Shown: positions 4,700 through 29,516 of the stretch, in pieces | Layout of the letters: every line of letters starts with the position of its first letter | Position numbering within the stretch: position 1 is the stretch's first letter | Assembly (NCBI RefSeq): GCF_905475395.1 | Contig: NC_058337.1 | Location: 101,860,368-101,924,367 of the forward strand | Direction of reading: 5' to 3' | Length of the DNA: 64,000 nucleotides | Origin: Chrysoperla carnea | Lineage: Eukaryota > Arthropoda > Insecta > Neuroptera > Chrysopidae | The notes under the pieces: model-generated | Database searches by the model: none | The model's input: the letters and a program-made list of their open reading frames with translations, nothing else | Told to the model about the DNA's origin: nothing | Made by a program: the position numbers and the translations under genes

Positions 4700-4700
4700 C

Positions 4701-7745: not shown

Positions 7746-7831
7746 AAGAAATATTGAATTGATTTTCCTTAAAATTGGGCAATACAGTATGCTAATATGC
7801 AAGTACTGGATCCAGTTTACTATGGAGTTAT

Positions 7832-8330
7832 ACAGGGTGTTTTTTTTAAGTTCACATATACTTGAAATTCGAAAAATAACTATTATCGATAAAAATGCTT
7901 CAAACGAAAAATGAATAGGCGAAAACGTACTGAAAAGTTTTACCTAAAATTATTCTTTCGAAAAATTGTTTCTGCGAAATCAAAGCACCTCTTCAAAAGA
8001 CAATTTTCCAATAAATCCAATAACAGTGGTTTGTTTTTCTATAAAGACCATTTTTGTTGAAATTGAATGAACAAACGCACAAAAAGCTAGATTTTTGCTA
8101 TGAATTACTGTTCTAAACTATTTGGTTTACGGAAAAAAGTTTCAAACAAAAAGTGTTTGCGTATTTATATAGAACAACTTTTTAATTTAAAGCGTTTATC
8201 TAATAATTGTCAGTTATGAATCAGAGTGTGGTTTTAATTGAACCTGAAAAGGTTTGAATTCGATTCTGTATAAAATGTGTGCCTTTGAGACTAACATTTT
8301 TCGTTTGAATTATTTTCCTTGATTAAATTT
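7832..8330. mobile_element. CAGGGTGT inverted-repeat element
   Basis: It starts TACAGGGTGTTTTTTTTAAG and soon has GAAATTCGAAAAATA and TTCAAACGAAAAATG. The right end carries the inverse (ACATTTTTCGTTTGAAT). The inner TTTGGTTTACGGAAAAAAG and GTATAAAATGTGTGCCTTTG match the inverse of 43072-43310. It is a TIR-type non-autonomous DNA element without coding sequence; the right terminus is decayed. Confidence 0.5.
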
Positions 8331-8692
8331 ATCAAATAATAAAAAACAACAGTATTGTTTATTTATTACATGTATGTATACAATCTATATATATGCAGAG
8401 ACATTGGCACCATCTGTGAGCTACATCTAATACTAAAATATAATTGGCTATATTTAATTTTAATTTTAATTGAGTGGCCATCTGTAGATCCTTTCAAGTA
8501 TTAAAAAACATCATAATGAAATACAAAAAACGTGATAACAAAATACAAACAATTAATTTTTGCAGTTTTACAGTAGAATAACTAAAAAAATTAAGTGATA
8601 TTAATACAAGTAAAGGAAAAATTTTAATTATAGTTATTATAATTTTAAAGTTATTTATTAATTCATTGTTATTTTAGCAATAAAATGCCACG

Positions 8693-8836
8693 ATGCGACG
8701 TCGTACATTGATTGGTCGTAAAGAACGTGATCGTAATCGATCATTAATGGGTGATCATCCTTTTGAGATTGCTCAAAAGAATTTGAATTTTGAAGTATGT
8801 AATGTATCTCATCGTCGTTGGTTTGATTTGTCATAA
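8693..8836 (+). CDS. Possible small ORF, 47 codons, unknown
   Basis: A short ATG-to-TAA ORF encodes a basic peptide. It begins MRRRTLIGRKERDRN and ends SHRRWFDLS. All nine arginines use CGT or CGA, the codons favoured in the real genes of this window (Frizzled, TRF2). Its GC content is higher than that of the flanks. An in-frame TAA lies 12 bases before the ATG, so it is not an open extension of an upstream exon. An AATAAA (8843-8848) lies just after the stop. I do not recognise the sequence. It could be a true small ORF, a decayed exon, or chance. A longer ORF on the opposite strand covers the same bases and has less gene-like codon use. Confidence 0.3.
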   Translation: MRRRTLIGRKERDRNRSLMGDHPFEIAQKNLNFEVCNVSHRRWFDLS

Positions 8837-9910
8837 ATTTAAAATAAAAAATGAATTGAATATTTTCACAGCGCATAATAACATGGATCTATTTTATATG
8901 ATACCATTCGCGAGCCATTACAAAGTTATCTTTTAGCTAGTTTACAATAAACCAGAAGAAAATATGATAAAACAGGAAATTTATTCAGTCGTTACCCAAT
9001 AATTGAATATTTGAATACCTAAACGATACGGATTCCCAATACCAACTTGAAAATATTTATGATATAAGAAAAAAGTACCTATATGCATACACACAAATAT
9101 AAAAACTTGGTATTTTATAAAACGAACACATGTTTATTGTTAAGGTGTTTGATATTCATAAAAGCAAGCAGGTGATGTATAAAAAATAATAAAGAAGAAT
9201 TGTTGATTGAACTACAGTAAGTAAAACGGAAAGAAACTTCATCAGGTACCTCCTCCTTTTATCATATGTCTTTTTTACACACATAATATACCAATGCTTA
9301 AAATTGTATAAAAGAAAGAGATGAAATAAGGATAACTTGATATGATTTGCAATGTTTTTTTTTGACATTCTTGACGATTTTTTCTATACTCTTTTCTATA
9401 CCCGACAAACACTTCATTACGATTACAATTCTGCCAGATCCATTTCGATGCTTATCGCTAGGTTATCCACAAAATATGCATTCAAATAGAGAAAAACTGG
9501 AGCACCGTGGGTGGCTTCGAACATGATAAATTTGTGGCTTTTCATTTACATTAAAAAATAAAAATAACATGTACACTTTGTATGAAAAATATCATATTTT
9601 TGATAAGATAGATTATAAAAATACGTCAACTATTTATTACCTATCATACATCGAAGACCGTCATCATACATCGAAGACCGAACATCTACTTGAGGGTAAA
9701 TCGGGTGCATACTTGAGAGTTAGAAAATTTCCCGTTCGAAGCTGGACACGGTTACAACTCATGTTAGAGAGGTCTATTTTTTTTTTAAATCTTAGGTTTT
9801 CTGAGAGTATGAAATGATTACGCACGCATTACACACAATACATTGTTTGGAGACTTTTTCTTTATTCTATACATAAGAACGTCCATAAAAACTTTGCTTA
9901 CTTCATATAT

Positions 9911-10463
9911 TTTAATGCCATGTACGTATGTAATATATATCAAGGTATACTAAGTTTAGTCCCAAGTTTGTAACGTTTAAAAATATTGATGCTACCAAAA
10001 ATATTTTGGTGTTCATAAAATCACCTAATTAGTCCATTTCCGGTAGTTCTTCTGTCTGTCTGTCTGTCCATCTTTCATTACGATAACTCAAAAACGAATA
10101 GGAATAGCAAATTGAATTTATAACGTGCTTATTACGTAAAAAGTGAGGTCGAGTTCGTAAATGAGCAACATAGGTCAATTAGATCTTGGGTCCGTACGAC
10201 CCATCTTGTAAACCGAGATAGAACAAAAGTTCAAAAAAATGTTAAAAAGAACAAATGTAAAAAATATTTCTTATAAAAAATTTTACAATTTTATTAGAAA
10301 TATTTTTTCGTAATTATGACTGTTTACCCGTTAGGGCGCAAATTTTATAGTTATTGAGATATCAGTTATGTATGTGTGACATGTATGTACCTATGTGTAA
10401 TCTCAACACTGTCTATACATGGTATTTCAACAATTAACTCATTCAATTGTTTGTTTTCACTTG
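9911..10463 (+). repeat. Family A repeat (forward)
   Basis: Near full-length copy: TTTAATGCCATGTACGTATG start, TCCCAAGTTTGTAACG, a CTGTCTGTCTGTC tract, ATAACTCAAAAACGAA, TTGTAAACCGAGATAG, CCCGTTAGGGCGCAAATT, ending TCAATTGTTTGTTTTCACTT. The AACCGTTAGAGATAG word is shortened here. Confidence 0.8.
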
Positions 10464-11236
10464 TTTGTACCTATATTCCGTTTTCCAAGCGAATATCGTT
10501 TAATAAAATTTTAGAAGACAAACGAAAATATATGCAACTTTTCAATCACTTTTCATTCCATTTTAGTGAAAAATCGGAAATTTTTTATGTGAATTTTTTT
10601 TTGTATTTTGAGAAGTGAAACCCCAAGATGATAGCACTTATAATAAAAATATAGAAAACTTTTAAAAATGAACACTACATAATATATTCGCTGTATGTAC
10701 CAGGCATTACATTAAAGTATAAGCATCTTCAAAAAAAGTATTCATTACGTTAGGTACCTTAAAGAGCCTTTTTAAATGTTTTTGATATGATAATTCTTGA
10801 ATGAATTTGTATAATAATAATTATGATTCAAAACTTAACATACAATTGGTCATTTCCGTTATTAAATTCCTTTATTTTGTTGTTGTAAGTAATTGTATAT
10901 TCTTCACAAAAAAAAAGTATAATCATTACATAATTTTGATGGATAAGGGAAATTGAAATGTTTATTAGTCATTAAGAGATTTTGTTAATATACTAAAATT
11001 TCGTTTTTTGTAATTTAAATAATGTTTCGAAAAAATGTATGTTGTTACTTTCAAAATAATTATTTTAGGTGACCTTCAATTGAATACCTAATCATCGAAA
11101 TTAACGTTTAACTATAGTGAGATTAATGTGAAGATTATGAAAGATATAATCAATGAGAACGTAATTAACTTCAAATTTTCAGTTGTCCAAGTTATAAAGA
11201 ATGTGCCTAAAAATCAAAATTATAGAAAGACTTGTT

Positions 11237-11492
11237 TTTATACCATGTATATGAAATATACCAAAGTATACTAAGTTTAGTCCAAAGTTTGTAACGCTTA
11301 AAAATATTGATACTATGAACAAAATTTTGTTATAGGTGTTCATAAAATCACCTAATTAGTCCATTTCCGGTTGTCTGTCTGTCTGATCACTCAAAAACGA
11401 AAAGAGACATCGGCTGAAATTTTTATAGCGTGCTTAGGACGTAAAAATTGAGGTTGAGCTATGAGCAACATAGATCAATTGGGTCTTTGGTT
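11237..11492 (+). repeat. Family A repeat, 3'-truncated copy (forward)
   Basis: It runs from TTTATACCATGTATATG through AGTTTGTAACGCTTAAAAA and CTGTCTGTCTGATC to GAGCAACATAGATCAATTGG. The family A text then stops. The break lies just downstream (on the - strand) of the heat-shock-type promoter at 11543-11579. Confidence 0.75.
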
Positions 11493-11542
11493 TCATTTTA
11501 GATCCGAACTCTCAAGAAAGATTTACTCAAGTCGCCGAGAGA

Positions 11543-11579
11543 GCCTCTTTTTATACCCTGAGGTTGTTCTAGAAGCTTC
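11543..11579 (-). promoter_or_regulatory. Heat-shock-type core promoter (HSE plus TATA)
   Basis: On the - strand, a perfect three-unit heat shock element (GAAGCTTCTAGAA, bases 11579-11567) is followed about ten bases later by TATAAAAAGAGGC (11555-11543). This closely resembles the TATA region of insect Hsp70 promoters. The expected start site is near 11525. Downstream, the sequence enters a truncated family A repeat within about 35 bases, and no heat shock protein reading frame follows. It therefore looks like a promoter that lost its gene, or one that drives a non-coding RNA. Two more HSE arrays lie at 11849-11866 and 11903-11930. Confidence 0.5.
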
Positions 11580-11848
11580 TGGTTAAAAAAAATGTTCGAG
11601 AGAAGGGTTTTATTCTATTCTATTAGCTTCTATTGTTCTTTTTCTTGTTAGAAAATCGTTTAATTTAGTAAAATTTATTTGAAAAAACACTAAACTTGGT
11701 TAAAAGATTTAAATTCCGGAAGAAGGCCCAGAAAGTTCGTGTCCGTTACTGGCTTGATAGTTCTACTGGTCGTCGAGAGATGGCGCTAACAGCTCTCGGC
11801 GGTCAGTTTAAAGTTGATCATGATTATAGTTGTCGGTTTAAACAAACT

Positions 11849-11866
11849 TTCTAGAATTTTCTAGAA
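11849..11866. promoter_or_regulatory. Four-unit heat shock element
   Basis: TTCTAGAATTTTCTAGAA consists of four perfectly phased alternating units (TTC, GAA, TTC, GAA, five bases apart), the binding layout of trimeric heat shock factor. It lies about 290 bases upstream of the - strand TATA box at 11555. Confidence 0.55.
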
Positions 11867-11902
11867 AATTTTGAATCGATTTTGACCGTTACACACATTT
11901 TG

Positions 11903-11930
11903 GAACTTTCTAGATCATTCCAGAAATTTT
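11903..11930. promoter_or_regulatory. Six-unit phased heat shock element array
   Basis: Units start every five bases: GAA 11903, TTC 11908, GAT 11913, TTC 11918, GAA 11923, TTT 11928. Four are perfect and two have one mismatch. Such phasing over 28 bases is unlikely by chance. Together with the two other arrays it marks 11.54-11.95 kb as a heat-responsive control region. Confidence 0.5.
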
Positions 11931-11984
11931 TTCTGAAAATTTTCGAAAGTTCACATGAGTAAGAAAAGGACTATATTTTTTATC

Positions 11985-12095
11985 ACAAATATCAAACTCC
12001 CTTACTTTCACTGGGAGACCAAGGGGTATTTGCCGCCCCAACGAGAAGTTGATTGGAGTTGGTGGCCCTGTCTTCACGTACTAACATTAGCATTT
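11985..12095 (+). other. GC-richer block, possible transposon remnant
   Basis: CTGGGAGACCAAGGGG, TTTGCCGCCCCAACGAG and GGTGGCCCTGTCTTCACG stand out against the AT-rich flanks. A 66-codon ORF (11955-12155) covers it but shows no known motif. I suspect a fragment of a dispersed element rather than a gene. Confidence 0.25.
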
Positions 12096-12689
12096 TATAT
12101 AAATATTAGATTTCATACTAAAATAAAATACAACTTCGTCATCGCAAATTTTTGAAAACACACCTTCTAAGGAAATTTTATATATTTTTCAAGAAAATTT
12201 TAAAACCAAAATCACATCATCATATATCTTGAAAATTGAATATTCGATAAATCTTGTATAAAATAGTTCTTTGCTACACCTACTGGCGGACATTTTATTT
12301 CTTCATCTTACAACGTAATTCAATTTAATAAAACAGTCGTTTAAAAATCAATTCCGTTCGTAAACTCATAAATAATTCAATTTATGAAATATAGATATTG
12401 TAATTTTTTTTCTCCCTAAATTTTCATCCGTGTCATCATCATTCCTACAAATAAATATATATTTATAGAAAACTGTGTACCTACACAAATTGACTTACGT
12501 TTGCTTAATAGACATTGGGGGAGCATTTTCGACATAATTTACTACTCTTCAGGCTTTTACAAGTCTTATAACGGGTGATTCATTTGGAGATACTTTTTTC
12601 AAAACTAAATACAAAATTTTAAAACCATTCTTTACCTTTAGTTTTTAAAGATTATTTCTTTCAAATATTAACCGTAAGAAAGGCCAATC

Positions 12690-13130
12690 TTAGATGAAAG
12701 AAGGAACGCATTTATGGTACTACAAGACAGAGTTTGTCTGGGTATAATCGTAGGAGTTTCAAAGTTCTTATATCGCTTCCAAAAGCTTCTATAAGCAAAA
12801 TGGATGTGCCCATTACCGGACACTAGCTAGGCGACAGGAACGTTGAACTAGTGAATCACGATTATTGCAGGAGTTGCCTTAGGGGTGGGGGGTTGAATAA
12901 ATTATGTCTCATCTTCTCTGTCTAGTTCATCTCTTGTCATGAAGAGATGGACTCATTTGAGTCAACATTTCTTTGACGACCTCTTCGACTCGTAATTTGT
13001 TGACGTCAAAGCTCTCCTGCTGTTCTCAAACAGCTCCAAATAATAAGTAGTGGCCGGAAATGGGTCAATCCTCTTTTCGATATCACAACGGATCCTGTGG
13101 TTTAAGTGTAGCCCACCCCTTTTCTTGTTT
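12690..13130. other. GC-richer island of unknown nature
   Basis: About 440 bases have a higher GC content than the surroundings, with words such as CACTAGCTAGGCGACAGG, CCTTAGGGGTGGGGGG and AGTAGTGGCCGGAAATGG. On the - strand a short open stretch (about 12950-13025) reads like coding sequence (FDVNKLRVEEVVKEMLTQM), but it is bounded by stops. It may be a decayed gene or transposon fragment. The rest of 12.2-15.1 kb shows no supported feature. Confidence 0.25.
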
Positions 13131-15126
13131 GATTACAATGATTAATGCATGATTAATTCTCTCTAACTGCACGATTTTCCGTGCAATGACATTAAGCTAA
13201 TTACCCATTGCCTGTCAAATTTACTAATCGCATATTTGTTGAACTCAGTACAGAAGAGAACTCAGGAGAAAACATTGCAGAAAGAGTACTCATTTTATAT
13301 GAGTAAAGAAAAATACTAAAAATTAATTTGGTTTCGAAAAATTCGCTATTTTCTCAATGACAAAGACAAAGACAAGGAGTTTATATTTTCATTAAACTTC
13401 CGTATTATTTAATATTAGTAGTATTTATTTATAGATTATTATAAAACATAAATAAATTAGTAATTTTAATAAAAGTATTGTTTATATTTTTTATTATAAA
13501 CTTTTAAGCACGTTCATTACACTTTTTTTTAAAGGTCGTTTTAACTATGTTTGTAAGTGTTTTGAAAATACTACAAAATTCAAAAATCTATAAGTTAAAA
13601 ATTTTTATGAATTAAATATATTAATCTTAAGCTTGCTTTATTCGATAAATATATCACATTTGTATCATTTTACGCATTTGCGGACATTTTTTTTCAAGTG
13701 TTTTCAATCTTATCGTTTTCGAAAAAAATTATGAAAGCCAACATCTATGAATTCTATATGGTTCAATTAAAAGTTCGTATAGAAAAATTGTGAAGTGAAA
13801 GTATTTTAGAGTAGAAAAATAAGAAGTAGAATTCATTTATGCCGCCCTTGCTTTTTGAATGTCTGCTTAATAGTTGGAAATTATTACAATTCATTTTTTT
13901 AAATTTTAATCTACTTTGAACTTCAAAGAAAACACTCAGGAATTATTAAAAAATAGGTATATTACAAATGTGATAGTGTATACTATACAATATGCGTATG
14001 CGTAAAATTTTACAAATGTGATATATTTCCAATTAATATTTTTTTCGTGACTCTGTAGGCTATAAAAATGCATCATCAGTTCTACTGGCGACAAAGAAAT
14101 ATAGGAACGGAGTGAAAGCGAGTGTGTTGCTACCGTGAGAAAAGAAAATCAGGGCAATCAAACCACGTCAGTGGGTCCACTTTCTACCTTCTTGATGCAT
14201 GATAAAAGCGCAAATATCAATACATTGCATCACACTATGCATTCTATGCATTGCATATTCTTACATCAATTGACATAGCCATAATTTGCTCAAAATAACA
14301 CCAAATAAGTTGTTTTCTACATGTCATTGTCAATACTTTGTAAATTGGCTTTTTTTGTGAAATAAGCCCGTTACTATATATGTCATCAATAATAGTTTTC
14401 CATCAAAATACAACCCAACCAGACCTAAGTTTTGTTATTTTATTACTTAATTCGCATTTTTCCCATTCGGCGCGTAATAAAGTCAAAATAATAGAATACT
14501 TCGAAAACTTTTAAAATCTACGACGCAACCTCCCGAAAATAGAAAAACACCCTCAAAATTCTTCTATCCATGCTAGAAAAATTCGTTTTTGTGCATTCGA
14601 GGTGAAATTCAATGAAACTCTTCAACCCATAGCGCAAAGCGGTAGGAAATTATACTAATTTTTCAGCTCTACATATTGTCAAAAAACTTACAGTGAACAT
14701 TTCCGATTGAGTTATATACCGCTCAAGAGCGGATCATATTTCGCGAAGATTCTGACAGATATCTGAAATTACGGTAATTTTGTACGACATCATCGCCACG
14801 TCATAACACTCGCAATTATACTCACTAGTAGGACTAGTTATTACTACTGAACCATAATACGTATTTATACCACACTTAACCAACTAGGAATAATAATAAT
14901 AATAAATTTATCTTGAAAAAAAAAGCTGAGTTTGTCTTTTAAAAGCTAGATCAACAATTTTCTGATTAAGCTTAATTTTAAAATTTCTTAAGTTTCTCCA
15001 GCATAGTACTAGTAAATCAATAACGATTTTCATCAACAGTTTAAAATAGAAAAAATCAACTTTACTTTGAAAGTTACTTCGAGAATTCATAAATTCGCAT
15101 TTACAAGAAGAGACAAACTTTTTACC

Positions 15127-15629
15127 TTTTTATACCATGATTATATGAAATATATGAAGGTATACTTAATTTGGTCCCAAGTTTGCACCGCTTAAAAATA
15201 TTAATGATAGGATTTTGGTATAGAAGTTCATAAAATCACCTAATTAACTCATTTCCGTTTGTCCGCCTGTCTGTCCATCTGTCATCACGATAACTTAAAA
15301 ACGAAATGTGATATCAAACTGAAATTAACCTATTCAGGACGCAAACAGTGAGTTTCAGTTTTAAATGAGCTTCATGGGTCAATTAGGACCCATCTTTTAT
15401 ACCCTTAGAGATCATTACTGTTTCCCATGATGGTGCAAATTAGGTTAAAACATTATTCATGTGTTGTATCAAGTTAACATTTATATTATTGTATATACTC
15501 TTATTACTTTGTGTGTAAGAGTGACTATCTATCTTTACTTACATGGCGTAAAAAGCAAATAATTGCGTAATCAACACTGTTTATACATGGTATTTCAACA
15601 ATTTATTCAGTCAATTGTTTGTTTTCACT
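15127..15629 (+). repeat. Family A repeat (forward)
   Basis: Landmarks are TTTTATACCATGATTATATG, TGGTCCCAAGTTTGC, TCCATCTGTCATCACGATAA, TTTCCCATGATGGTGCAAAT, and CAATTTATTCAGTCAATTG near the end. It ends about 235 bases before the TATA box of the nested gene. Confidence 0.75.
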
Positions 15630-15864
15630 GTATTTTATATTACTCAAAATGTATACAATTTTTATTTCATTTTTAGGTGTGAAAACAATTCTTTTCTATC
15701 AGCAAGTTAAAATTAAATTGTCACGTAATTAATTGATCCGCTATAATAATTTAAAATTGAAGCAAATCGCTAAAACAAAAGACTCATCATTTTGTAATGC
15801 ATGAACAACGTATTGACTCATCATATTAGTGAACTATTGTAGATTTGAAAGATTAAAGTTTCAG

Positions 15865-15900
15865 TATAAATATTATAGCTTCAAATTACATTTCGTTAGT
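15865..15900 (+). promoter_or_regulatory. TATA promoter of the nested repeat-protein gene
   Basis: TATAAAT at 15865-15871 is followed by an initiator-like TCGTTAGT (15893-15900), about 32 bases downstream, the usual insect TATA-to-start distance. The predicted 5' leader is about 125 bases and ends at the ATG at 16023. Confidence 0.55.
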
Positions 15901-16022
15901 AATAAATCAAATAAAATAATTAGTAAATCATTAATATATTTTAATTAATTAAAATATATATAGTGATTATACTAACAAAAAAAAAACTTATTTTATAACA
16001 AAAAGTATTTTACTCCAAAAAA

Positions 16023-19000
16023 ATGGGGCAGTTAATGCACAAAATATTCATAATTAATAATATTTTATTAATTGTTATAATTGTGTTTACATCAGCATAT
16101 CCACAGGATATTACTTATGTCAACAATAATGATGTAGCTACTAATACAGTTCCGGGCGGAATTCAACAGCCACAATTTCAACAACAAGAATTTCAACAGC
16201 AACAATTGCAGCCGCAACAAGTTGTGCAAGCTTTGCAACAACAAGTTGGACAACAACAGCAATTAGCCGTACCACAGCAAGGAGATGCAAATAGCCTGTT
16301 AAATAGAAATTCATGTTTATTCGGTTACTTATTAATGTTGCTTATTGATATAGTACGACCATCGTCAAACAATTGCATTGGTTGTAATGATGATACATCG
16401 ATTGGCCAAAATATATATCCACCACCTCAAACAGACGTGGTTGGAACAACTTTATCCACAAGTGATACAGGTGTAATACCGGCTACAAAGATAGCTTCTA
16501 TACCGAATACAAATACTGTAACAGATTCCCAAGGTAATGATGGTGGTAACACTGGATTGGGGATACCATTAGATAATTCTGGAGTAAGAAGTGTTACGAC
16601 AAATCCCGCAAATGGTATTCCTACTCAAATTGTTAGCGATACAACACCGGTTGCAGCTGGTACGAGTAGCATACTTCCTCAAACTACACAGCTACAACAA
16701 CAACAACAGCAGCAACTGCAGCAACCAATAACTGATACAAATGCTGTACCGTTCTTAACTGGTACGAGTACAATCCCTACTCAAACTGGTGTAGGTACAA
16801 TACCAAATTCATCTGGTACAAATACAATACCTATTCAAACTGACGCAGGAACAATACCGACTTCAATCGGTACAGCTACAATACCTACTCAAAGTGGTGC
16901 AGGTGCAATACCGGTTGCAACTGGTACAAATTCAATACCTGTTCAATCGGGTGTAGGTACAATACCAACTGCATCGGGTACAAATACAATACCTATTCAA
17001 ACTGGTGCAAGTACAATACCGATTTCCACCGGTAGAGCTACAATACCTACTCAAACTGGCGCAGGTGCAATACCGGTTGCAACTGGTACAAGTAACACAC
17101 TTCCTCAAACGGTACAGATACAACAACAACAACAGCAACAAGAACAAATAACAACGTCTTATGGCATTACACAGCTACAACAACAACAACAACAACAACA
17201 GCAACAGCAGCAACCAATATCAGGTACAGGTGTGGTACCGTTAGCAACTGGTACGAATTCAATACCTGTTCAAAGTGGTGTAGGTACAATACCAACTTCA
17301 TCGGGTACAAATACAATACCTCTTCAAACTAGTGCAAGTACAATACCGACTTCCACCGGTACAGCTACAATACCTACTCAAACTGGTGCCGGTACAATAC
17401 CGGTTGCAACTGATACAAGTAGCACACTTCCTTCAACTGCACAGATACAACAACAACAACAGCAACAACAAATAAGTAGCACTGATATTGTACCTGCTCA
17501 AACTGATGCAGGTACAATCCCAGTTTCAACTGGTACAAATACATTACCTACTGGTGCAGGTACAAGTACAGTACCTACTCAAACTGGAACAGTAACTTCA
17601 GGGCAAGGTGATGCAAACAGTGATGATGGAAGTGGAAATAATAGTCTTATTGAAGTACCAATAGCTCTTGGCTTAAATATACTTAGTCATGGTAGTGCAA
17701 ATGCTAAAGCTAAGTCTGGACGAAACAGTGGCGGAAGTGGGGGAAATACTCTTATAGGCGTTCCTTTAGATTTAGGAATAAACATATTAAGTAATGGTAA
17801 TGCAAATGCTGTTAATGATGATTCAATTGGAACAACTTCTACCGGAGGAAATGGAGGAACAACTGGTACAGATACTACAGGTGCTTCAGTGATACAACAA
17901 CAACAACAACAAATAACAACGTCTAATGGAATCACACAGGTACAACAACAACAACAAATAACGACTGATTCAATAGGAACAACTTCTGGCGGAGGAAATG
18001 GAGGAACAACTGGTACAGATACTACAGGTGCTTCAGTGATACAACAACAACAACAACAACAAATAACAACGTCTAATGGAATCACACAGATACAACAACA
18101 ACAAACAACGACTGATTCAATAGGAACCACTTCTGGCGCAGGAAATGGAGGAACAACTGGTACAGATACTACAGGTGCTTCAGTGATACAACAACAACAA
18201 CAACAACAAATAACGACGTCTAATGGAATCACTCAGATACAACAACAACAACAAGTAACGGCTGTTACCCCTTCAGGAGGAAATTCTGATGGAAGTAAAA
18301 ATAATGGTGGAACAGGAGGAAACAGTCTTATTGATATACCAATAGCTTTTTCTGAAAATATTGTTAGTAATGGTGATACTACTGCAATATCTTCGTCCGG
18401 AGCGAATGGAGGAAGTGGTAGTAACAACATTATTAATATACCAATTGCATGTGCTACAAATGTACTTTCTAATGGTGATGTAAATGCAACAGCTTCCACT
18501 GGTGGAAATTACGGAAGTGGTAGCAACAATGCAGTAAATGCACCAATAGCATGTCCTACAAATTTTCTAGCTAACGGAGATACCACTGGAACAGCTACAA
18601 CCGGTGGGAATAATGGAACCGGTAGTAACAACCTTGTTAATGCACCAATAGCAGCCGCCGCGAACGTAATTGCTAACGGAGATACAACAGCAATAGCTAC
18701 GTCTGGAGGGAATAATGGAAGCGGTAGTAACAACATTGCCAATAGTCCACTTGCAGTTGCCAGAAATGTTGCCTCTAACGGTGATGCGACCGGAATAGCG
18801 AACAGTGGTAAAAATACAGGAAGTGGTAGTAACACCGTTGTTAACATGCCAGTGGGCGCTACCAATAAAGTATTGAGTAATGGAAATGTATCTTCAAATG
18901 CCTCCTCTGGCGGAAATACAGGAAGTGGTAATAACAAACTCATAACTAGACCATTAGCAACATCGGCGAGTGTTTTAACTGACGGAGATACAACTTCAAT

Positions 19001-19156
19001 AGTTCCGTCGAGTGGAAATCCAAACGGACTTGCATCACCAAATGCTGGAAATGTTGGAATTCCTTCGGGACTCGGTACCGGAAGCAATACTGTTACAGGT
19101 ACTGGTATACCTCAAACTTTGGTTAATAATTCACCCAGTCAAGCAGGTGTCAATAT

Positions 19157-19230
<74 letters not shown>

Positions 19231-19232
19231 AG
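16023..19232 (+). CDS. Secreted Gln-rich tandem-repeat protein (1069 aa)
   Basis: A single uninterrupted reading frame. Residues 1-25 form a signal peptide (a hydrophobic run, then FTSAYPQ), so the product is probably secreted. Residues 45-85 are Gln-rich. Residues 96-123 form a hydrophobic stretch with three cysteines (NSCLF, NNCIGC). Next come 9-residue GTxTIPxQT/GxGTIPxxT repeats: 12 units at bases 16761-17084, then 6 units from 17250. Two 34/35-residue units begin at 17639 and 17744. Three ~50-residue DSIGTTS repeats (17818-18260) carry polyQ. Seven 34-residue units follow (18321-19034; core IPIAxxxNVLSNGDTTA, then GGNxGSGSNN). The protein ends in 24 glutamines. This composition suggests a structural secretion such as silk, glue, egg coat or cuticle, but I do not recognise the family. 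The gene sits inside the Frizzled intron on the same strand. AATAAA lies at 19280. The large antisense ORFs here are by-products of the repeats. Confidence 0.85.
18321..19034 (+). repeat. Seven tandem 102-bp (34-codon) units
   Basis: Seven consecutive 34-residue units in register inside the nested gene. Each has the order hydrophobic strand (xLIxIPIA), N-x-LSNGD turn, short Thr/Ala strand, and Gly/Ser/Asn linker (GGNxGSGS). Two related units lie earlier (17639 and 17744), separated by the DSIGTTS/polyQ block. The regular strand-turn-strand pattern could stack as a beta-solenoid; this is inferred from pattern only. Confidence 0.8.
19158..19229 (+). repeat. Pure (CAA)24 microsatellite, C-terminal polyQ
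   Basis: Twenty-four uninterrupted CAA codons directly before the TAG stop. The lack of CAG interruptions suggests recent slippage, so length should vary between alleles. Confidence 0.95.
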
Positions 19233-19279
19233 CCATAATATTAATAATAACAAAAATTAACAACTGATATAATTCTTAC

Positions 19280-19285
19280 AATAAA
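19280..19285 (+). terminator. Polyadenylation signal of the nested gene
   Basis: A canonical AATAAA about 50 bases after the stop codon at 19230-19232 would give a very short 3' UTR. Confidence 0.5.
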
Positions 19286-19357
19286 TCGTAAAGGTACAGG
19301 AAACTGGTTCAACACTTCTTAAAATTCGTACAAGTTCAAAACTAGTATGAATATACT

Positions 19358-19450
19358 TTTCGGAACTGATACAAATACAGCACCTGCTTAATCTGGTATC
19401 GATACAATACTGATTACAACTACAACAGGTACCACAATCCCCGACAACTA
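19358..19450 (+). pseudogene. Decayed copy of the 9-residue repeat array
   Basis: Read in the frame starting GGA ACT GAT, this segment gives GTDTNTAPA, a stop, then SGIDTILITTTTGTTIP. That is clearly related to the GTxTIPxQTGxGTIP repeats of the upstream gene. It lies beyond that gene's stop and AATAAA, so it is a remnant of a longer ancestral repeat region or of a second tandem gene. Confidence 0.6.
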
Positions 19451-19675
19451 CCAAAGGTGTAACTTCTATTCAAGTTATCCGAAGTGCAATTATGACTCTA
19501 ATTGTGAAATAGAGATAGAGTATATTTGTTTAAAACTTCTCCAGTAAATGATCAAGATGTTTTGATAGAAATTGTCTTGTCAATCATAAAAGAAATCGAA
19601 AACAATGGATTTTTCTATTTTCGTCGCTCTGATTTTACTCACAAAATATTTTTAAAATAAAAAATACAAAAAATA

Positions 19676-19721
19676 TAATTTATTTAATTTTATTTAATTT
19701 TATTTAATTTTATTTAATTTA
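19676..19721 (+). repeat. Minisatellite, 10-bp unit
   Basis: TATTTAATTT is repeated four times in perfect register, with a partial unit on the left. Confidence 0.9.
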
Positions 19722-20073
19722 ACCATAAAAGAATGGCTCCATAATATTCCGGCATAGGACTGTGGTGGTATCACTGATCCTAGTTAATAAAAAGCAGAAC
19801 TTTCCATGACCTTAATGCCTGGTTACCTTTGAATTTCATCGTTAAACTAGCTGTACCCTGCCAGACTTCGTTGTGGGACATTACGGTTGCATGGATATAG
19901 ATGAAAAGTATCTAGTAAATTTTATGATTATATGATTTAGTGTCCATTTGTAATGTACAAATCATGCTCTTTTAGTAGACGCCAGATTACTTTACAGAAA
20001 CGATTTTCATGAAAATGAGTATGTAGGGGTTTTTTGGGGCGATAAGTCGATCTAACAAGGTTTCATTTTAAAA

Positions 20074-20087
20074 AAACGTGCAATTCT

Positions 20088-20123
<36 letters not shown>

Positions 20124-20137
20124 AGAATTGCTCGTTT
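20074..20137. repeat. Palindrome with (TA)n core
   Basis: Two 17-base arms (20074-20090 and 20121-20137) are reverse complements with one mismatch and flank a 30-base alternating TA core. The arm word is GCAATTCTTGT. The whole stretch could extrude as a cruciform. The rest of 19.7-22.4 kb shows only AT-rich sequence and short ORFs without motifs. Confidence 0.9.
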
Positions 20138-21594
20138 AAATATATAAGATAAGATTAAGTTTAAGAATGACTGCGACTGTTGGGAAATATTTGTTTTATT
20201 TTACGACTGTTCAAAGCCCCCTCGATTGATAATTCCGTTGTAAAACGCATTTTCATCAACCAATTTATTTGTAAATCACGTTTCCATCACCCAGTCTAAA
20301 ATCAAATAGCTTTTATTATGAAAGAAAGCTTTTTTTCCGAGAGTAAAATAAGCGCACTCATCTAAATAATAACCTATTTTAGTGTCGTTACTCTGCATTA
20401 ATTATAATTTTTTTGTTTCTACAAAAATAACCAAAAAAACATAAATCTACATAAATTTGTTGACTGTTAAACCCAAGATTTTAAAATGAATTTAATATTA
20501 TTTAGGGACTCACTACTAACTAAATGGGATATTTGTAGGCGATGTGGGACGTTATTTAAAAAGTCATAAATCTTAGCTGATAATTCGTATAGTAAAGCCT
20601 CTCATATATCGTATGAAAGCAACTCAGACAAACACCTAAATATATAAGAATATTGTTTTGTATTTTGTGAATCGGTTCAAAAGTCTCATTTATATTACAG
20701 AATGTATCAAACAAAATTAAATAACATAACCAATAATTATTTTAATATCACATGTCGTGAAACTCGAATAGATATCTTATGTATATAAAATAGACATACA
20801 TATCGATATTTTAAAATAACGATAGTTTTTTTTAATGATATCTTGTTCTTTGTTGCTCACTGAGTGCAAGTAGGAAGGAGTGACCTAAACTTTTACTCGA
20901 TGAAAAATTAGTGTATTGTACAAGAAGAACGGAAAGAACCCATAGTAATAACTGACTTATCGGAATAAATTATATATTTTCGTAATTAATAGTATGGTTA
21001 TTCGTTTATTGCAGAACCAAAATTAGCAGCAAAACTGATAATTTAATAACGGTATATTACATTAGATAAATAGGCAAGTATTTAAGGTGATTGTAAACCA
21101 AATACTTTTTTTGTAGTCAAGTAATGAGTTATTTTTAGCTTTACAATACCACGCAACTACAAAAATATATAATATATTGTGTGCAAGTGATGCTTATAAA
21201 TTTGATAATATAGATATCGCTCTTCAATCATCATTACTCTAACTTTAGCCGTCTCTGTTCATCAAATGATGTATCTTCGATTTTAAGATCCCTTTGTCCG
21301 ATTTCAAAAATTTGATATGGTACTGCTCCTGCTGGCGATTTGCTACAGGTCCTCGAAAAAAAGGTGTCCTGTGGTGGGGAACATATTTCTGGTTTGGATT
21401 ATCGAAAATGAAAAAATCCAGAAAATTTATACAGAAAATTCCATAGATGAACAGGTATTCATGGAAGGAATAGTCAAAATTATAATTTTTGACAAAATAC
21501 GGCTTCCAAAAAAAAGTTCACAAATTTCCAACTGTGGAGGTCTAAAATATCGAAATAATTTTCAGAAATCTTATTTCTTTGATTAATACCTGGA

Positions 21595-21690
21595 GAAAAT
21601 ATTTAAGAAGATTTTGTAACCGACTTTGAAAATTCTGTTTCGAGAAAAACGCGTTTAAAGTTTCAAAAAACGTTACTTTACTACACTCAG
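21595..21690 (+). repeat. Short dispersed motif block (TTCGAGAAAAACGCG)
   Basis: GTTTCGAGAAAAACGCGTTT and AAAGTTTCAAAAAACG recur in similar form at 38670-38730 (GTTTCGAGAAAAACGCATTT). The preceding ORF (21317-21586) has no known motif. Probably a fragment of an interspersed element. Confidence 0.4.
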
Positions 21691-22462
21691 CCAAAATATT
21701 TTTTTAATCACACGAAAAATTACACAACATTTTTATGCTACATACATCTTTTACATTAAAAATGTATCAAGAAAATAAAGATACTAAATACTTCACATAC
21801 ATAAGTGGAAAAAAGATATAAAAATAAACTTGACGATATTATTAGAAGACACTTCTCAAATATCCCAATGAATTATATTTGGATATAAATTTTAATTAAA
21901 AAAGGCTGTAAATAAAAGATACAAAATAGAATGAAATTATGTATTAGAAAGAAATAAGCATATAATACCTTTTAACTATATATTATTCACCTTTTTTTGT
22001 ATTGATAGCTATAAAATTTTTCAAAAGATTATTATTTTTTATATTTTTTGAAACTTATTTTAAAATTCTATTCTTGTTTGGATAACTAACCCAAAAAGAT
22101 TTTTATAGTTATATTTTGTGTAAAAGTTCTATGATGCCCTTAATTTTTTGTATTGTAGTTCTGAGAAATTTAATTTAAATTTTTTTTTTATTTTTAATTT
22201 TACTTTTCTTGCCTAATATTAAAAATACATATTGAAGACTCTATTCGAATTGAATTGGATTTTATTGTTTTATGAAACAAGAGGATAAGGTCCATGATAC
22301 CTCAAAGTTTAAGTTCTATTCTAGACGAGGCGAATGGGGGCGATAACAGAAATGATAATTTTACAATACAAGGAGTATATTTTAAATACTCCAAAAAGTG
22401 GTAAAATAGAAGTAAGTCTAAATTAGTTGATACATTCTGAGCATGATTAAAAATCGATCTAT

Positions 22463-22963
22463 CAAGTGAAAACAAACAATTGACTGAGTTAATTGTTGAA
22501 ATACTACGTATAAAAAGTGTTCTTTACGAAATTGTTTGTTTTTTCACGTCATGTAAGTAAAGAGAAATAGCTACACATACATACATGTCACACACATGAC
22601 TGATATTCCCATATGATACATACTATATAATTTGCGCCCTCATGGGTAAACAGTTATGTTTACGAGAAAATGTTTGGAACAAAAGTTGTTTATTATTTTA
22701 TAAGGAACATTTTTTTACATTTAATCTTTTGTTCTATCTCTAACGGTTTACAAGATGAGTCCTACGGACCCAAGATCCAATTGACATATGTTGCTCTTTT
22801 ACGACCTCACTTTTTATGTCCTGAACACGTTGTCAAACCTTATCTTGTTGTCAGACAGGCAGGCGGACGAACAGACATTCATACAGATAACCAGAAATGG
22901 ATTTTATGAACCCCTATACCAAAATTTTGTTCGTAGCATCGATTCCATATACATGGTACAAAA
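22463..22963 (-). repeat. Family A repeat (reverse)
   Basis: Reverse copy: AAGTGAAAACAAACAATTG start, CATGGGTAAACAGT, CTCTAACGGTTTACAAGATG, CAGGCAGGCGGACGAACAG (the inverse of the GTCC/GTCT tract), ending near CCATATACATGGTACAAAAA. Two overlapping short ORFs here are translations of the repeat and occur in other copies. Confidence 0.8.
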
Positions 22964-23202
22964 ATTAATCGTTGAAAAAGAAAGTATATATCATTAAAAT
23001 TCGGTGAATCGATCGGGGAAGGGTTTGGAGTAATATTTTCTATATTAGGTCAAAATCGCTAAAAAAATTACAATCAACCTTAATTTAAGTACAGGCATAT
23101 CAAATACCTATGATTTTCATGAATTATTTTTGGTAATTATTAAATATAATCAACATTTGATAATTTTTTAAGTATTTGAATGTTGCATGCTTATAAATTT
23201 TA

Positions 23203-23234
23203 CAACTAATTTTCTTTTTTCGTTTCAGGTAAGC
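23203..23234 (+). promoter_or_regulatory. Recursive splice site 2 (zero-length exon)
   Basis: ACTAAT branch-point-like word, then TTTCTTTTTTCGTTTCAG ending at 23228, then GTAAGC at 23229-23234. The structure and wording nearly repeat those of site 1 at 6854/6855. Removal in steps would leave 16,374 nt between the two sites and 5,770 nt from here to the terminal Frizzled exon. Confidence 0.75.
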
Positions 23235-23776
23235 CAAGGGTCGAATTAAAGTTATCGGATAAGTATAAAAAATCAAGTATATTATTTATATCAAAATTTT
23301 ACAATTTTTAATGTTTTTACCAAAACGAAGTTAACAAAAAATTATCACAATTTGTTAAATGCATTAAATTTCAAAACACTTCCCAGTAAAAAAAATTAAA
23401 AAAAATAAAATCATGTAAACTCTATTTAGCTCCAAAAAATGAAGAAAATCAAAAAAACTGTTACCCCACGATTTTGAAATGCGCTTTGGTTTATATTTAT
23501 TTTTTTAGACATATATATGTCTAAAAGCCCCTTTCATATTATATTATTGTTTACTAAATATGCAAATAAAATAATTTTCTTCTAAATTAAATTCTTTTAG
23601 ATGTAACTAGACATACGGTGTTTCTTACATTGAAGAAAATATGCACACATTCATTTTATTCTACATTTACAAGGGCTGTACAAAAGTTTACATGCTTTGC
23701 TACAACCTGATACAATCACATCGAGCGCTCACTTCCGGTGCGTTTTTTTATAGTTACTAATTTAATTTTGGATAAA

Positions 23777-24192
23777 AACTATAAAATTTACACCTAATTA
23801 GCGCCTTCGTGGGTAAACAGTGATGTGTACAAAAAAAATGTTTCAAACAAAAGTTGTTTATTTTTTTATAAGGAATATTTTTTATATTTAAACTTTTGAT
23901 CTATCTCTAACGGTTTACAAGATGAGTACTACGAACCCAAGACCCAATTGACCTATGTTGCTCATTTACGAACTTGACCTCACTTTTTACGCTTGATATC
24001 TATTTTCGTTTTTGAGTTATCGTGCTTACGGAAGGACAGACGGACAGGCAACAGGAAATGGAATAATTAAATGATTCTATGAACACCTATAACAAAATTT
24101 TGTTCGTAGCATCGATTTTTTTAAGCGTTACAAACTTAGGACTAAACTTAATATACCTTGATATATATTACATATATACATGTTATAAAAAC
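23777..24192 (-). repeat. Family A repeat, truncated (reverse)
   Basis: It starts inside the element (TAAAATTTACACCTAATTAG) and lacks the CAATTGACTGAG end. It keeps GTGGGTAAACAGTGATG, CTAACGGTTTACAAGATGAG, CGTTTTTGAGTTATCGTG, AAGCGTTACAAACTTAGGAC and the final ATATACATGTTATAAAAAC. Confidence 0.8.
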
Positions 24193-24442
24193 CTTAGTGT
24201 AGCCAACCATTTGGACAATCCTGTTATTAAATATTTGTTAAAATGCTAAAAATATATTTTACAAATTCATATACAAAACATTTAACAGCAAATAACGTAT
24301 ACAAATTATGTACAAATTTTCTTTATGTCTGCAAGCAATGAAAATAAATGTACCACAAACATCGTTATGTTAGAAATTTAAAAATCATGCTTGATTTTAC
24401 CTCTATATACAGATTTCAATTCTATAGAGTCTGTCCAAAAAT

Positions 24443-24540
24443 GGTTTTTATTGAAACTGTACAGCAATATAGCTGATATATCAGAATAACACATGAACTA
24501 TAGTTTATAAAGATGTATTAATAAAATGCAACTAAAACAA
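24443..24540 (+). repeat. Fragment of element E
   Basis: CAGCAATATAGCTGATATAT, CAGAATAACACATGAACTAT and AGTTTATAAAGATGTATT match 4804-4860 of element E closely. The rest of 24.5-27.3 kb is AT-rich intron in which I see no supported feature. Confidence 0.7.
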
Positions 24541-27327
24541 TGGCAGCGCTATTCTCTTCTAAAATTTTCAATAAATCATTCATTTTATTTAAATAAAAAA
24601 AATTTCAAATGTTTACATGTAATTGGTATATAGTAAATGTCTATTACATATTGCGAACAAGTTCTTAAGCCACGATTTCAAAAGCCCTAAAAAAGTATAG
24701 GTAGGATCTGCTTAAATCTGTGTTATATTAATATTCAGCTCTGCACATAGAGGTCGTGTGATTAAAATTCTTTGTTCTTTACTGTAAATTCATGAATTAC
24801 AGAACTTTTATGGAACCATACTACCATCAAAAATTATTGTACAAGCGTTGGAATTTTATTTTCTTCAACACCCAAATATAGCGCATTTATTTAAACAAGA
24901 CGTCTTTTATTTTTATTCATAATATTTTTTTTATTATTTCATTTACTAACTAGATATCATTTATTGTTTAATAAAAGCTGTACTTCGCCTACGTCATTTT
25001 TATACTTCAATATTAGATGTATGTAATAGTAATGGCAGTAACGTTATACATATTGCATAGCTTGAAAATTGAATTAATTCTATCAAATAGTTTTTAAAGT
25101 GAATGCGTTGATTTAAAACAGATGAAAATGTCAATATGTATCTGAATTTATTACTTCCTGTGCAATTATTTTTATGTATGTTTAAAATATTTTAGTTATT
25201 CAATTAAATTTTATAATTATTAATAGTTTTTATAATTTTTAAGGCGTATTTCTTTTAGATTATCCTATTCTGATTTATACTTTACTATTACCCCGGTTTG
25301 GCTTTGCACGACAAATTTTTCACCCCCCAAGTAGACACCACCAATAGGGCCTCGATAATCCGTACACTCAAAATGTCTTTATTGAAATTAAACAGCTTTT
25401 TATAATTGAAAATGAATACAAATTTTTATCATTAAGTATTTTTACAATATTTTTTAAAAAATTTTAATTGAAATCAAACGAAATTTTCAATTTTCGATAT
25501 ATTGAAAATTCCTCTAGATATCGAAAAATTTAATCCTCACTTTCCGTCTAATATTGTCAAGTTATAACATATAACCACTAACGTGCTCATACATCCTTAC
25601 TTACAATTAGTCGGGCACAACGGGTTTTTTTTTTGTTTTCAATTATTTAATAAGGTTTTAACTTTAATTTAAATAGTTGTTATTTAATTTCTACCGACTT
25701 GTTTTGGAAACATCTTTGAAAATCCGTCCGCATTGTTTTAACGTTGTAACTTTGGCATAATACACAATAAAGACGTTTTAAACTATTTTTGAGAGCCTAA
25801 CCTTGAAATTATAAAAAAACAGAATAGAAGAACAGGAGAAGTGGATGCCAATGGTTAAACCTTTTGTAATGAGAGACGTATCTTTGTAATATTATAAAAC
25901 ATAAGAGCCAGTCCTTCGAAAAAAATAGTTGGACCTACAGCCTTTTGATATCAACTTGCAGCTATACTGATGATGCTTACATGGTAATCGAAATACGTAT
26001 TTTTATAATACAAAATTGATCTAAGAAATTGGTGAAAAAATCGAAATTTATTTAGAAATATCCTAAATATCGAAAATGAGCTAAAGGGTTAAAAATTGGT
26101 ACAAAAGTTGGGATAGTATCAAGGATGTATCATTAGGGGGATGTTAACTTCCCACCCTCTTCACTTTTTGTAGTCTCTACACCTTCTCCAGTTTGAGCTA
26201 GAGAGTTGAGGGACACCTCGAAATATTACGTTTATAAGTCTTTTAACATCTCCGTATCCCCTCCGAATAGGGTCTAGAGGTTGAAAAGTTGTATGAAAAA
26301 TGAGTTCTAGTTAAGGAAGTGCCTTTTGGAAGTGTCAACTTTCCATCCACCTATATCGCTCTTAAATATAAAATTTGCATGTTTCCCAAAACTTGAAAAA
26401 ACAGAAATCGTATTTCAATAAAAATCGTTCTATAATGTAAGAAATATCACTATTAAATAAAAATAAACTACTCAAATATCAAAAATATTGATAGAAATTA
26501 CTTCTAGGTAACAATTATTATTTTAAAAATCCAAAATCTGTACTGTCTTATACAAATGTTGCTTTAATAATATTCATAAAATTAAAACTTGCTTAAAAAT
26601 TTGATTTATGTATTTATTGGACATTATTAAATGTTGAAGTTGAACAAAAATAAATTTAATTGAAACATTTTTCATGCTTTTTTATGTTTTAATGTCGTTG
26701 TTGTCAAAAATATATTATTTTATATATAAATACAGATAAAAAAACTTGTATGACCAGTTGTTTGTATAGCCATATGCATATAATAAAAAATTTTGTTACT
26801 TATTTAAGAATATACAATTTTTAATTATTATCAAATTTAACACTTAATAAATTAACTTAAATTGATGTATTTATTATTGGTGTCCCCCAAATATGTACCG
26901 TAAATTGATAGTAGTTCGACTTTGTAGGTCTGTTTTACTATACTCAATGTCAGTGCATTAATAATATTAAAATCTCGACTCCGCTCAGCTGTGAAATGAA
27001 CCGAAATACGCTCGCTCTTTGAAGATCATCGTAATGCCTGTGGTCTCTCCGTTCATCTCACGTTCTCTTTCCTTCAATCAGATGGACTCAAATCTGAAAC
27101 AGAAAGCTTTATCATCGCTACTCAAGATGGTGGCATAGCTACTCTAACATAACAAATAGCATGCATATCTCAGCGGAAGTCCTTCTGATATCTCGAAAAC
27201 TAACGTATATTGCCAAACGCTGCCCTCCGAGTTCTTTACCATTTACTTCCTTAAACAAAAGTAATAAGTGCATCCTACACCATTCCTACCACATCCTTGA
27301 TTGAGTCCGCCGTCAATAACGAGATAT

Positions 27328-27922
27328 TTTATACCATGTATATATGAAATATACATAGTATATTAAGTTTCGCCCCAAGTTTGTAACGCTTAAAAATATT
27401 GATGCTACGAAAAAAATTTTGGTATAGATGTTCATAGAATCACCTAATTAATCCATTTCCGGTTGTCCGTCCGTCCGTCCGTCCGTCTGTGGACACGATA
27501 ACTCAAAAACGAAAAAAGATATCGAACTGAAATTTTTACAGCGTACTCAGGACGTAAAAAGTGAGGTCAAGTTCGTAAATGAGCATCATAGGTCAATTGG
27601 GTCTTGGGTCCGTAGGACCCATCTTGTAAACCGTTAGAGATAGAACAAAAGTTTAAATGTAAAAAATGTTCCTTATAAAAAAATAAAAAACTTTTGTTTG
27701 AAACATTTTTTTGTAAACATCACTGTTTACCCACGAGGGCGTTAATTAGGTGCAAATTTTATAGTATGTATTAATATAGGAATATCAGTTGTGTGTGTGT
27801 CTATTTAAAAGTGAATATCTTTTGTTATTTACGTGACGTCAAAAAAACAAACGATTGCGCATCAACACTGTCTATACATGGTATTTCAACAATTAACTCA
27901 GTCAATTGTTTGTTTTCACTTG
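27328..27922 (+). repeat. Family A repeat, longest copy (forward)
   Basis: The most complete copy. It has TTTTATACCATGTATATATG, AGTTTGTAACGCTTAAAAA, a (GTCC)n tract (27460-27490), GATAACTCAAAAACGAAA, AGGACCCATCTTGTAAACCG, CACTGTTTACCCACGAGGGC, and ACGTGACGTC, an extra segment missing from the shortest copies. It ends CAATTAACTCAGTCAATTG plus TTTGTTTTCACTTG. Confidence 0.85.
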
Positions 27923-28073
27923 TTTTGTATACTTTATAAGTCAAAGTCTCTCATACATGAAACTTTTAATAAATTTTGTTATATTAACACATTATACCAC
28001 TTAAGAGAGTGAGACTGTACACTTTAATGGAAAATGCAAATTACGTATTTTCATTTTAACAAATAGAAAGAAA

Positions 28074-28157
28074 CAAAAAAATTACATAGAAGCCGAGACT
28101 CGAACCCGGGTTCTCTACATATTCGGTCTAGGTCGTAACCAACTCCGTCCAATTATA
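28074..28157 (-). repeat. tRNA-derived (SINE-like) fragment
   Basis: On the - strand, GTTGGTTACGACCTAGACCG resembles a tRNA D-arm region. CCGGGTTCGAGTCTCGG then forms a complete T-arm with a B-box (GGTTCGAGTCTC). A T7 run follows (around 28080), as in a Pol III terminator. No intact acceptor stem or anticodon arm is evident, so this is a SINE or a tRNA pseudogene, not a working tRNA. Confidence 0.5.
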
Positions 28158-28422
28158 TGTAGGTAACCCGTTACTTTGTTAACGTTTATTTATAGATTTG
28201 GGCTTTTAAAGTTTGCGTTGAGCAGTTAAAAGGCTAATTTTCTTAAGAAAAATTTGGAAAACTAATATTCATTAAGTAAAAGCATGACAAATATTTTTCT
28301 ACAAAGAAAATTACAGCAAGCCTCGCTCGTTTTTCCATAAAATACATTTAAAGTGATGAAATTGCATGCATTTATGTATTATTTCTCCTACAAATGGTTT
28401 TCGGCATCAATATTTCAAAAAC

Positions 28423-28605
28423 TAGGTTAGGTTAGGTTATATTGGCTGTCCAGGAAGGACACACTTAGCCTATAGAGCCCATTGTGATATCATGTATGTG
28501 TTTTACCACCTTTACGCTGGTAATTTCATTTATCAGCTCCTCAATTTCAGAGGCTGAGTGCACCTCCTTCATATACCATGCATATACCATGCACTACTCC
28601 AGCCC
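28423..28605 (+). mobile_element. TTAGG-headed retroelement-like fragment
   Basis: It begins with GGTTAGGTTAGGTTA, then TATTGGCTGTCCAGGAAGG, ACACACTTAGCCTATAGAGC and CCATTGTGATATC. A GGTTAGGTTA head followed by GGCTG...GGACACACTTAG...CCATTGTGATA is a recurrent dispersed sequence in insect genomes, from memory. It ends with a duplicated CATATACCATG. I see no coding part, so it is probably a non-LTR element end. Confidence 0.5.
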
Positions 28606-28998
28606 AACTCTTAATTAAATTAATTTTGAGAGCTGAGCTAATAGTGCGACTTTCAAAAACTATGGTATATATCGAAAAATTTTACTCTTAATTATCGTTT
28701 AATTTTCCCAAGCTCTAACAGAATTTATAAATAAAATTTGAAAGAGAAGTCTCAAGTATGATCACACATTCACTTTTTGTGGAACTACCTTAATGTCATA
28801 ATTAAAATGAGACTCGGATACATTTTTTCTATAAATAGACTTAAATAGTTAATTCTAAAAACAGCAGATGCTCTTTTAATTTATATGTCTATAAGATTTA
28901 TTCATTAGATAAAAATTGTTAAAAAAAAAAAAGAACTAATTTCAATAAGAGTTTCATTCAATTAGCATACTAACATTTTTTTTGTTTTCTAATTTCAG

Positions 28999-29516
28999 GC
29001 GATATACTAAGCGGTGTCTGCTATGTTGGATTATGGAATGTGGATGCATTACGTGGATTTGTTCTAGCACCATTATTTATCTACCTCGTATTGGGTACAA
29101 TATTTTTACTTGCTGGTTTCGTATCATTATTCCGTATACGTACCGTAATGAAACATGATGGCTCCAAAACGGATAAATTAGAGAAATTAATGATACGTAT
29201 TGGTATATTCAGTGTACTTTACACAGTACCAGCCTTAATTGTATTAGGCTGTTTATTCTACGAACAAGTGAATTTTGAATCATGGATGACTACATGGCAC
29301 ATGGAGATGTGTAACAAAACATATTCAATACCATGTCCAATAAATGCACGTAATACTGGACAAAAACCAGAATTTGAGATATTTATGATAAAATATTTAA
29401 TGTGTATGATTGTTGGAATTACATCAAGTGTATGGATATGGTCTGGTAAAACGTTAAACAGTTGGAAACGTTTTAGTGATCGAATACAAGGCAGACAAGT
29501 ACAAGCATACGTTTGA
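28999..29516 (+). CDS. fz: Frizzled Wnt receptor, terminal coding exon
   Basis: The acceptor is TTTCAG at 28993-28998, with a TACTAAC branch point upstream. The first two bases complete a split codon, followed by [19 protein letters not shown], the conserved Frizzled text before TM5. Then come TM5 ([20 protein letters not shown]), intracellular loop 3 ([19 protein letters not shown]), TM6, an extracellular loop with two cysteines (MCNKTY, IPCP), and TM7. KTLNSW is the KTxxxW motif that binds Dishevelled. The protein ends QAYV, compatible with a PDZ-domain ligand. About 171 codons lie here. The cysteine-rich Wnt-binding domain and TM1-TM4 are not in the window. The family is certain; that it is fz rather than fz2 or another paralogue rests mainly on the short tail after KTxxxW. 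Confidence 0.9.

Follow-up and report, generated by a model that had tools for sequence, protein, structure and literature searches.

A probable ratchet point in the 168-kb frizzled intron of the green lacewing Chrysoperla carnea

Recursive splicing, the stepwise removal of a long intron at intronic ratchet points, is a well known process in Drosophila, in which the introns of frizzled, Ubx, kuzbanian and outspread were the first four to be validated (PMC6110457; PMC8758631). The recursive segments of flies range in length between about 2 kb and more than 60 kb (PMC8758631). Intronic ratchet points of flies are described as being followed by a cryptic recursive-splicing exon (RS-exon) of about 50 nt, the downstream donor of which loses to the ratchet donor (PMC8605326). 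Beyond the fruit fly, an excess of ratchet-point (RP) sites over the complementary strand was computed in 2009 for introns longer than 50 kb in mosquito, honey bee and beetle (PMC2773006, Table 2); that table covers fruit fly, mosquito, bee and beetle and no neuropteran, and gives counts by intron class and for no single gene. A search of the open-licence literature, which was not exhaustive, found no report of recursive splicing in Neuroptera. The kind of element treated here is well known, and the frizzled gene of the lacewing adds a probable new case in an insect order for which no report was found.

In this study, a fused 3'/5' splice site, CAG|GTAAGC at 23229 on the plus strand, was analyzed in Chrysoperla carnea, which is a green lacewing (Neuroptera) and not a fly. 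The window is the whole stretch of 64,000 nucleotides that was analyzed. The element, referred to as site 2 (23205..23234), consists of a branch-point-like ACTAAT (23205–23210), a pyrimidine tract (23211–23221), GTTTCAG up to 23228 and the donor GTAAGC (23229–23234). It was read from the letters, scores 20.4 bits with a composite matrix and corresponds to a genome match at C1:101883580-101883600. Pyrimidines occupy 14 of the 16 positions from −20 to −5, and the branch-like CTAAT lies at −23. From its sequence, site 2 is very probably a ratchet point (a recursive splice site or zero-nucleotide exon) of the frizzled pre-mRNA.

A second element of this kind, site 1, lies at 6829..6860 on the same strand and is composed of ACTAAT (6829–6834), a pyrimidine tract, GTTTCAG up to 6854 and GTAAGA from 6855. 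An earlier note on this DNA had described the two sites as almost identical, with the same order and spacing of their parts. The order was found to be the same, whereas the rest of the wording is slightly strong: the start of the branch motif precedes the junction by 24 nt at site 2 and by 26 nt at site 1, and position +6 is C at site 2 and A at site 1. The letters before the junction are TGTTTCAG at site 1 versus CGTTTCAG at site 2, with TG and CG, respectively, preceding TTTCAG. The two sites are similar over 35 nt at 83%. An origin of both as one duplicated block was considered and ruled out, the likeness being limited to these 35 nt.

The composite acceptor–donor weight matrix, which is approximate, placed sites 2 and 1 at ranks 1 and 2 among the 163 AGGT on the plus strand of the window (20.4 and 20.3 bits), and the top score among the 166 AGGT on the minus strand was 12.05 bits. 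Exact CAGGTAAG occurs twice in the 64 kb, both strands included, namely at sites 1 and 2. Furthermore, in Markov sequences of orders 1–4 (40 each), the mean number of sites with this score was between 0 and 0.025 for 64 kb of one strand. These ranks and means agree with the earlier claim that two sites of this form on one strand are unlikely to have arisen by chance.

Judged from its sequence, the host gene is frizzled, the orthology being judged from the closest solved human receptors. The terminal coding exon lies at 28999..29516 on the plus strand (Pfam Frizzled, 218.8 bits), behind the acceptor CTAATTTCAG ending at 28998, and a search of the lacewing's own genome located the remainder of the Frizzled receptor on this contig and strand, 168 kb further upstream. 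A start of the frizzled intron inside the window was considered and rejected, as no upstream exon was seen among the open frames of the window and the genome search placed this exon 139 kb before the window. With this exon and the 160 kb that precede the window, positions 1..28998 were recognized as the 3' part of an intron of 168,113 nt (plus strand, phase 1), which runs from the donor AAG|GTAGGT at C1:101,721,253, equivalent to window coordinate −139114 counting through 0, to CTAATTTCAG at 28998. When the two exons are joined, a complete Frizzled of 577 amino acids is obtained, which is gap-free against Frizzled-7 at the junction. The mature coding sequence of frizzled is therefore complete without site 2, which counts in favor of a ratchet point.

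A matrix scan of the whole intron returned six sense-strand sites with scores of 18.7–22.1 bits, which lie at −76595, −60019, −30718, −20139, 6855 and 23229 in window coordinates; the next best position on this strand scored 14.0 bits, and the top score on the antisense strand was 12.65 bits. The first four sites sit upstream of the window, sites 1 and 2 are the fifth and sixth, and site 2 is the last before the terminal exon. CAGGTAAG occurs six times on the sense strand of the intron, in each case at one of the six sites, and is absent from the antisense strand. Strong acceptors, defined as 13 pyrimidines in 16 positions followed by CAG, number 27 on each strand, and GTAAG follows in six of the 27 on the sense strand and in none of the 27 on the antisense strand. 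At the −60019 site, a simple consensus found no branch-like motif, which counts against the reading as a ratchet point.

The earlier note had counted two sites per 29 kb. This must be corrected to six sites, four of which lie beyond the window, and to seven steps over 168,113 nt; from 5' to 3', the steps measure 62,519, 16,576, 29,301, 10,579, 26,994, 16,374 and 5,770 nt. The last two lengths had been given correctly, although the division of the whole intron by two sites no longer holds. The placement of a nested gene in the larger of these two steps was also accurate: a single-exon open reading frame at 16023..19232, on the strand of frizzled, lies inside the 16,374-nt step. The first step, from −139114 to −76595, is the longest and contains no strong site; its best positions score 14.0 bits at −138915, a weak candidate 199 nt after the intron donor, and 13.0 bits at −137702.

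Like Drosophila fz and further long introns of flies (Ubx, kuz, osp, Ten-m and luna), the lacewing intron has a sense strand with several sites at which AG|GT is fused. In both fly and lacewing, the intron is very long, the pyrimidine tract and the donor are strong and the gene is frizzled, and the precedent of Drosophila fz supports the interpretation of the lacewing sites as ratchet points. The two systems differ in that the mean step is 24 kb in lacewing frizzled versus 9.1 kb in flies (PMC6110457), and in that T occupies position +6 at none of the six lacewing frizzled sites, whereas the published fly consensus is gtaagt (PMC2773006). Elsewhere in the lacewing genome, T was observed at this position in 11 of 40 sites. 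The mean step, longer than that of flies, and the 62.5-kb first step with no strong site count against ratchet points.

If site 2 acts as a ratchet point, the upstream exon, carried forward by the earlier steps, would be joined to the nucleotide that follows the CAG ending at 23228. This junction would rebuild a strong donor, exon..G|GTAAGC, which would in turn be spliced to the acceptor at 28998, so that the last 5,770 nt would be removed and nothing of site 2 would be left in the mRNA. We infer that site 2 is used in RNA, that the steps proceed in 5'-to-3' order and that the site is under selection.

The cryptic exons known from flies offer a further comparison. Five of the six frizzled sites are followed by a donor of 4.65–9.54 bits at +31..+71; at site 1, a possible cryptic exon extends over 6855–6885 (plus strand) and ends before AAT|GTAAGT. 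For the frizzled sites, a P value of 0.0001 was obtained with a donor range of +25..75 that was selected once the data were known; the P values were 0.0016 and 0.017 with wider ranges and 0.27 with +100..250. Because the range had been chosen post hoc, a separate test was performed on 40 of the 295 matches outside frizzled (the genome-wide matches are described below), which comprised the first 37 listed on C1 and three from the Hox span; to accommodate the latter, the three sites that came next in the list were left out. For each bin, the sites with a donor scoring 5 bits or more were counted, with random positions of the frizzled intron as the null. Such a donor was present in 40% of the sites at +20..60 (null 12.8%), in 32.5% at +60..100 (null 12.3%), in 20% at +100..140 (null 11.1%), in 7.5% at +140..180 (null 12%) and in 12.5% at +180..220 (null 11.9%). 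The excess at +20..100 indicates that this class of sites behaves like the ratchet points of flies, and it fits the fly RS-exons of about 50 nt (PMC8605326), whereas site 2 has no convincing donor of this kind. Its best donor at +10..250 reaches only 3.26 bits, compared with 12.95 bits for its ratchet donor; a donor of 1.89 bits lies at +48 and one of 4.57 bits at +389. In having no visible cryptic-exon donor, site 2 belongs to a minority, as 5 of the 40 sites outside frizzled likewise lack a donor of more than 4 bits within 150 nt, and this lack of a good donor counts against its being a ratchet point.

The donor at +48, CAA|GTATAT, enters into another explanation, by which an ordinary alternative microexon, for example one of 48 nt, begins at 23229 with the letters GTAAG and is retained in a part of the frizzled mRNAs, the site not being used as a ratchet. 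The 48 nt from 23229 are indeed in frame with the phase 1 junction of frizzled and free of stops. However, the donor of this exon scores 1.89 bits versus 12.95 bits for the ratchet donor, the putative exons of the other five sites, with one downstream donor tried per site, all shift the frame, and the exon would mechanistically still be a recursive-splicing exon. We consider an ordinary microexon very unlikely. A related proposal, to which we attach only a slim chance, is that site 2 alone of the six sites (again with one downstream donor tried per site) heads an in-frame recursive-splicing microexon of 48 nt, which would add 16 residues at EG|DILSGVC. The microexons of Ubx, at 51 nt, are comparable in length to these putative 48 nt. 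If the proposal were true, recursive splicing would make a second Frizzled isoform in lacewings.

The background frequency of ratchet-point-like sequences was determined in 559 Mb of the genome. A strict pattern, consisting of 12 pyrimidines, any base and CAGGTAAG, gave 97 matches versus 3 when read backwards, and it fits one of the six frizzled sites. As the other five were missed, a relaxed pattern was adopted, which was shaped on all six frizzled sites and fits all of them, and is thus fitted to those sites. The relaxed pattern gave 301 matches on both strands of the 559 Mb, versus 8 when it was read backwards and 15 when its donor was permuted (GTAAG to GAATG; one permutation, with the relaxed pattern only). 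Four of the 15 permuted-donor matches have the same 21 letters, and probably represent one repeat. With the real sites counted in, the resulting rate amounts to 0.27 per Mb per strand, from which about 0.008 sites are expected in 29 kb and 0.045 in 168 kb. The earlier note had proposed that a genome-wide count be made and that a rate at which two sites per 29 kb are expected would speak against its interpretation; with 301 matches versus 8 and 15 in the controls, the background is low. Position −7, at which the pattern allows any base, is occupied by G in 44 of the first 100 listed matches versus 14% G in the window, giving TGTTTCAG|GTAAG.

The matches are also clustered by strand. Among the 97 strict matches, 20 pairs within 200 kb of each other lie on the same strand and one pair lies on opposite strands, while random placement of these matches produced 1.7 same-strand pairs, with a maximum of 7 in 2000 trials. 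In the list of the 301 relaxed matches, the first 100 were compared in this way, which comprise all of those on C1 and part of those on C2; their pairs closer than 200 kb number 39 on the same strand and none on opposite strands, or 24 and none when frizzled is left out. Clustering on the same strand is expected of sites strung along long introns and not of chance or mobile repeats. Approximately 300 sites by one narrow pattern, with those listed being clustered by strand, suggest that recursive splicing may occur genome-wide in the lacewing. Four strict matches, all on a single strand, were observed in each of two regions, C3:77,613,439-77,736,190 (minus strand) and C3:83,651,254-83,789,438 (plus strand), and these clusters predict further long introns that are recursively spliced.

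It could be argued that the motif belongs to a dispersed repeat, of which the sites would be copies. Many of the matches are near-identical over 21 letters, for example TTTCTTTTTGTTTCAGGTAAG, and some longer, weak alignments were obtained, one of which relates a site elsewhere in the genome (L054) to site 2 (112 nt at 72%, E = 6.5e-7) and another one frizzled site to a second (74 nt at 74%). However, four of the five alignments between frizzled sites cover just 34–40 nt around the motif, and a repeat should have left copies on either strand of the intron. In addition, with a query of 600 bases around site 2, for which 40 of 140 candidates were scored and common words were skipped, the 39 scored non-self matches were confined to the first 44 bases, about 280 bases away from the motif. 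An origin from a repeat is therefore extremely improbable. The segment 22901–22944 (plus strand) has at least 39 near copies genome-wide and is a short dispersed repeat that is clear of site 2. Finally, a chance meeting of a pyrimidine tract and CAGGTAAG in an AT-rich intron would be favored by the many pyrimidine tracts of this sequence, which has a GC content of 28–29%, and by the 27 strong acceptors on each intron strand. Such a meeting is hardly credible, since the controls yielded 8 and 15 matches against 301 in 559 Mb on both strands, a single intron holds six sites on one strand and zero on the other, and sites cluster on the same strand.

The interpretation of site 2 as a ratchet point, which the earlier note had put forward, is thus supported by the frizzled host gene, by six sense sites with no antisense counterpart, by the low background and by the precedent of fly fz. 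With this locus, the sequence evidence for recursive splicing of frizzled is extended from flies to a lacewing. If the recursive splicing of fly and lacewing frizzled is shared by descent, stepwise removal would be old in insects with complete metamorphosis. Furthermore, the lacewing is another insect, with a mean step in frizzled above that of flies, in which the control of recursive splicing by step length and cryptic exons could be studied.

Several other features were recorded in the window and beyond it. The nested open reading frame at 16023..19232 (plus strand) is about 1,070 residues long, opens with a signal-peptide-like segment and has repeats rich in Q, N, G and T, such as NGDTTAIATSGGNNGSGSNN; it contains Q-rich tracts and, immediately ahead of the stop, about 24 consecutive (CAA) units, and it had no Pfam match at an E value of 0.001. 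Searches of the window against Rfam at gathering thresholds and for tRNAs returned nothing. Downstream of frizzled, two open frames on the plus strand, 41133–41693 and 46793–47197, each match PF00352 (TBP) and are likely, from these matches, to be exons of a TBP-related factor, which is presumably TRF2-like. An open frame that matches ribosomal protein S13/S18 (PF00416) lies at 60332–60715 on the minus strand.

A homeodomain search, with 101 matches, revealed a run of six exons at C1 106.8–109.0 Mb on the minus strand, which from their homeodomain letters we take to be Scr, ftz, Antp, Ubx, abd-A and Abd-B. Relaxed matches are present in this Hox span at 107,591,532, 107,963,415 and 108,636,001, all on the minus strand; they are located on the 5' side of the homeobox exons of Antp, Ubx and abd-A, respectively, and are candidate sites by position. 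At the end of the window, an open frame that matches CFAP74 / DLEC1 Ig-like domains (Pfam) extends over 63202–63624 on the plus strand, and a near-match, TAGGTAAG, is found inside it at 63605, where it is perhaps the end of an exon with its donor.
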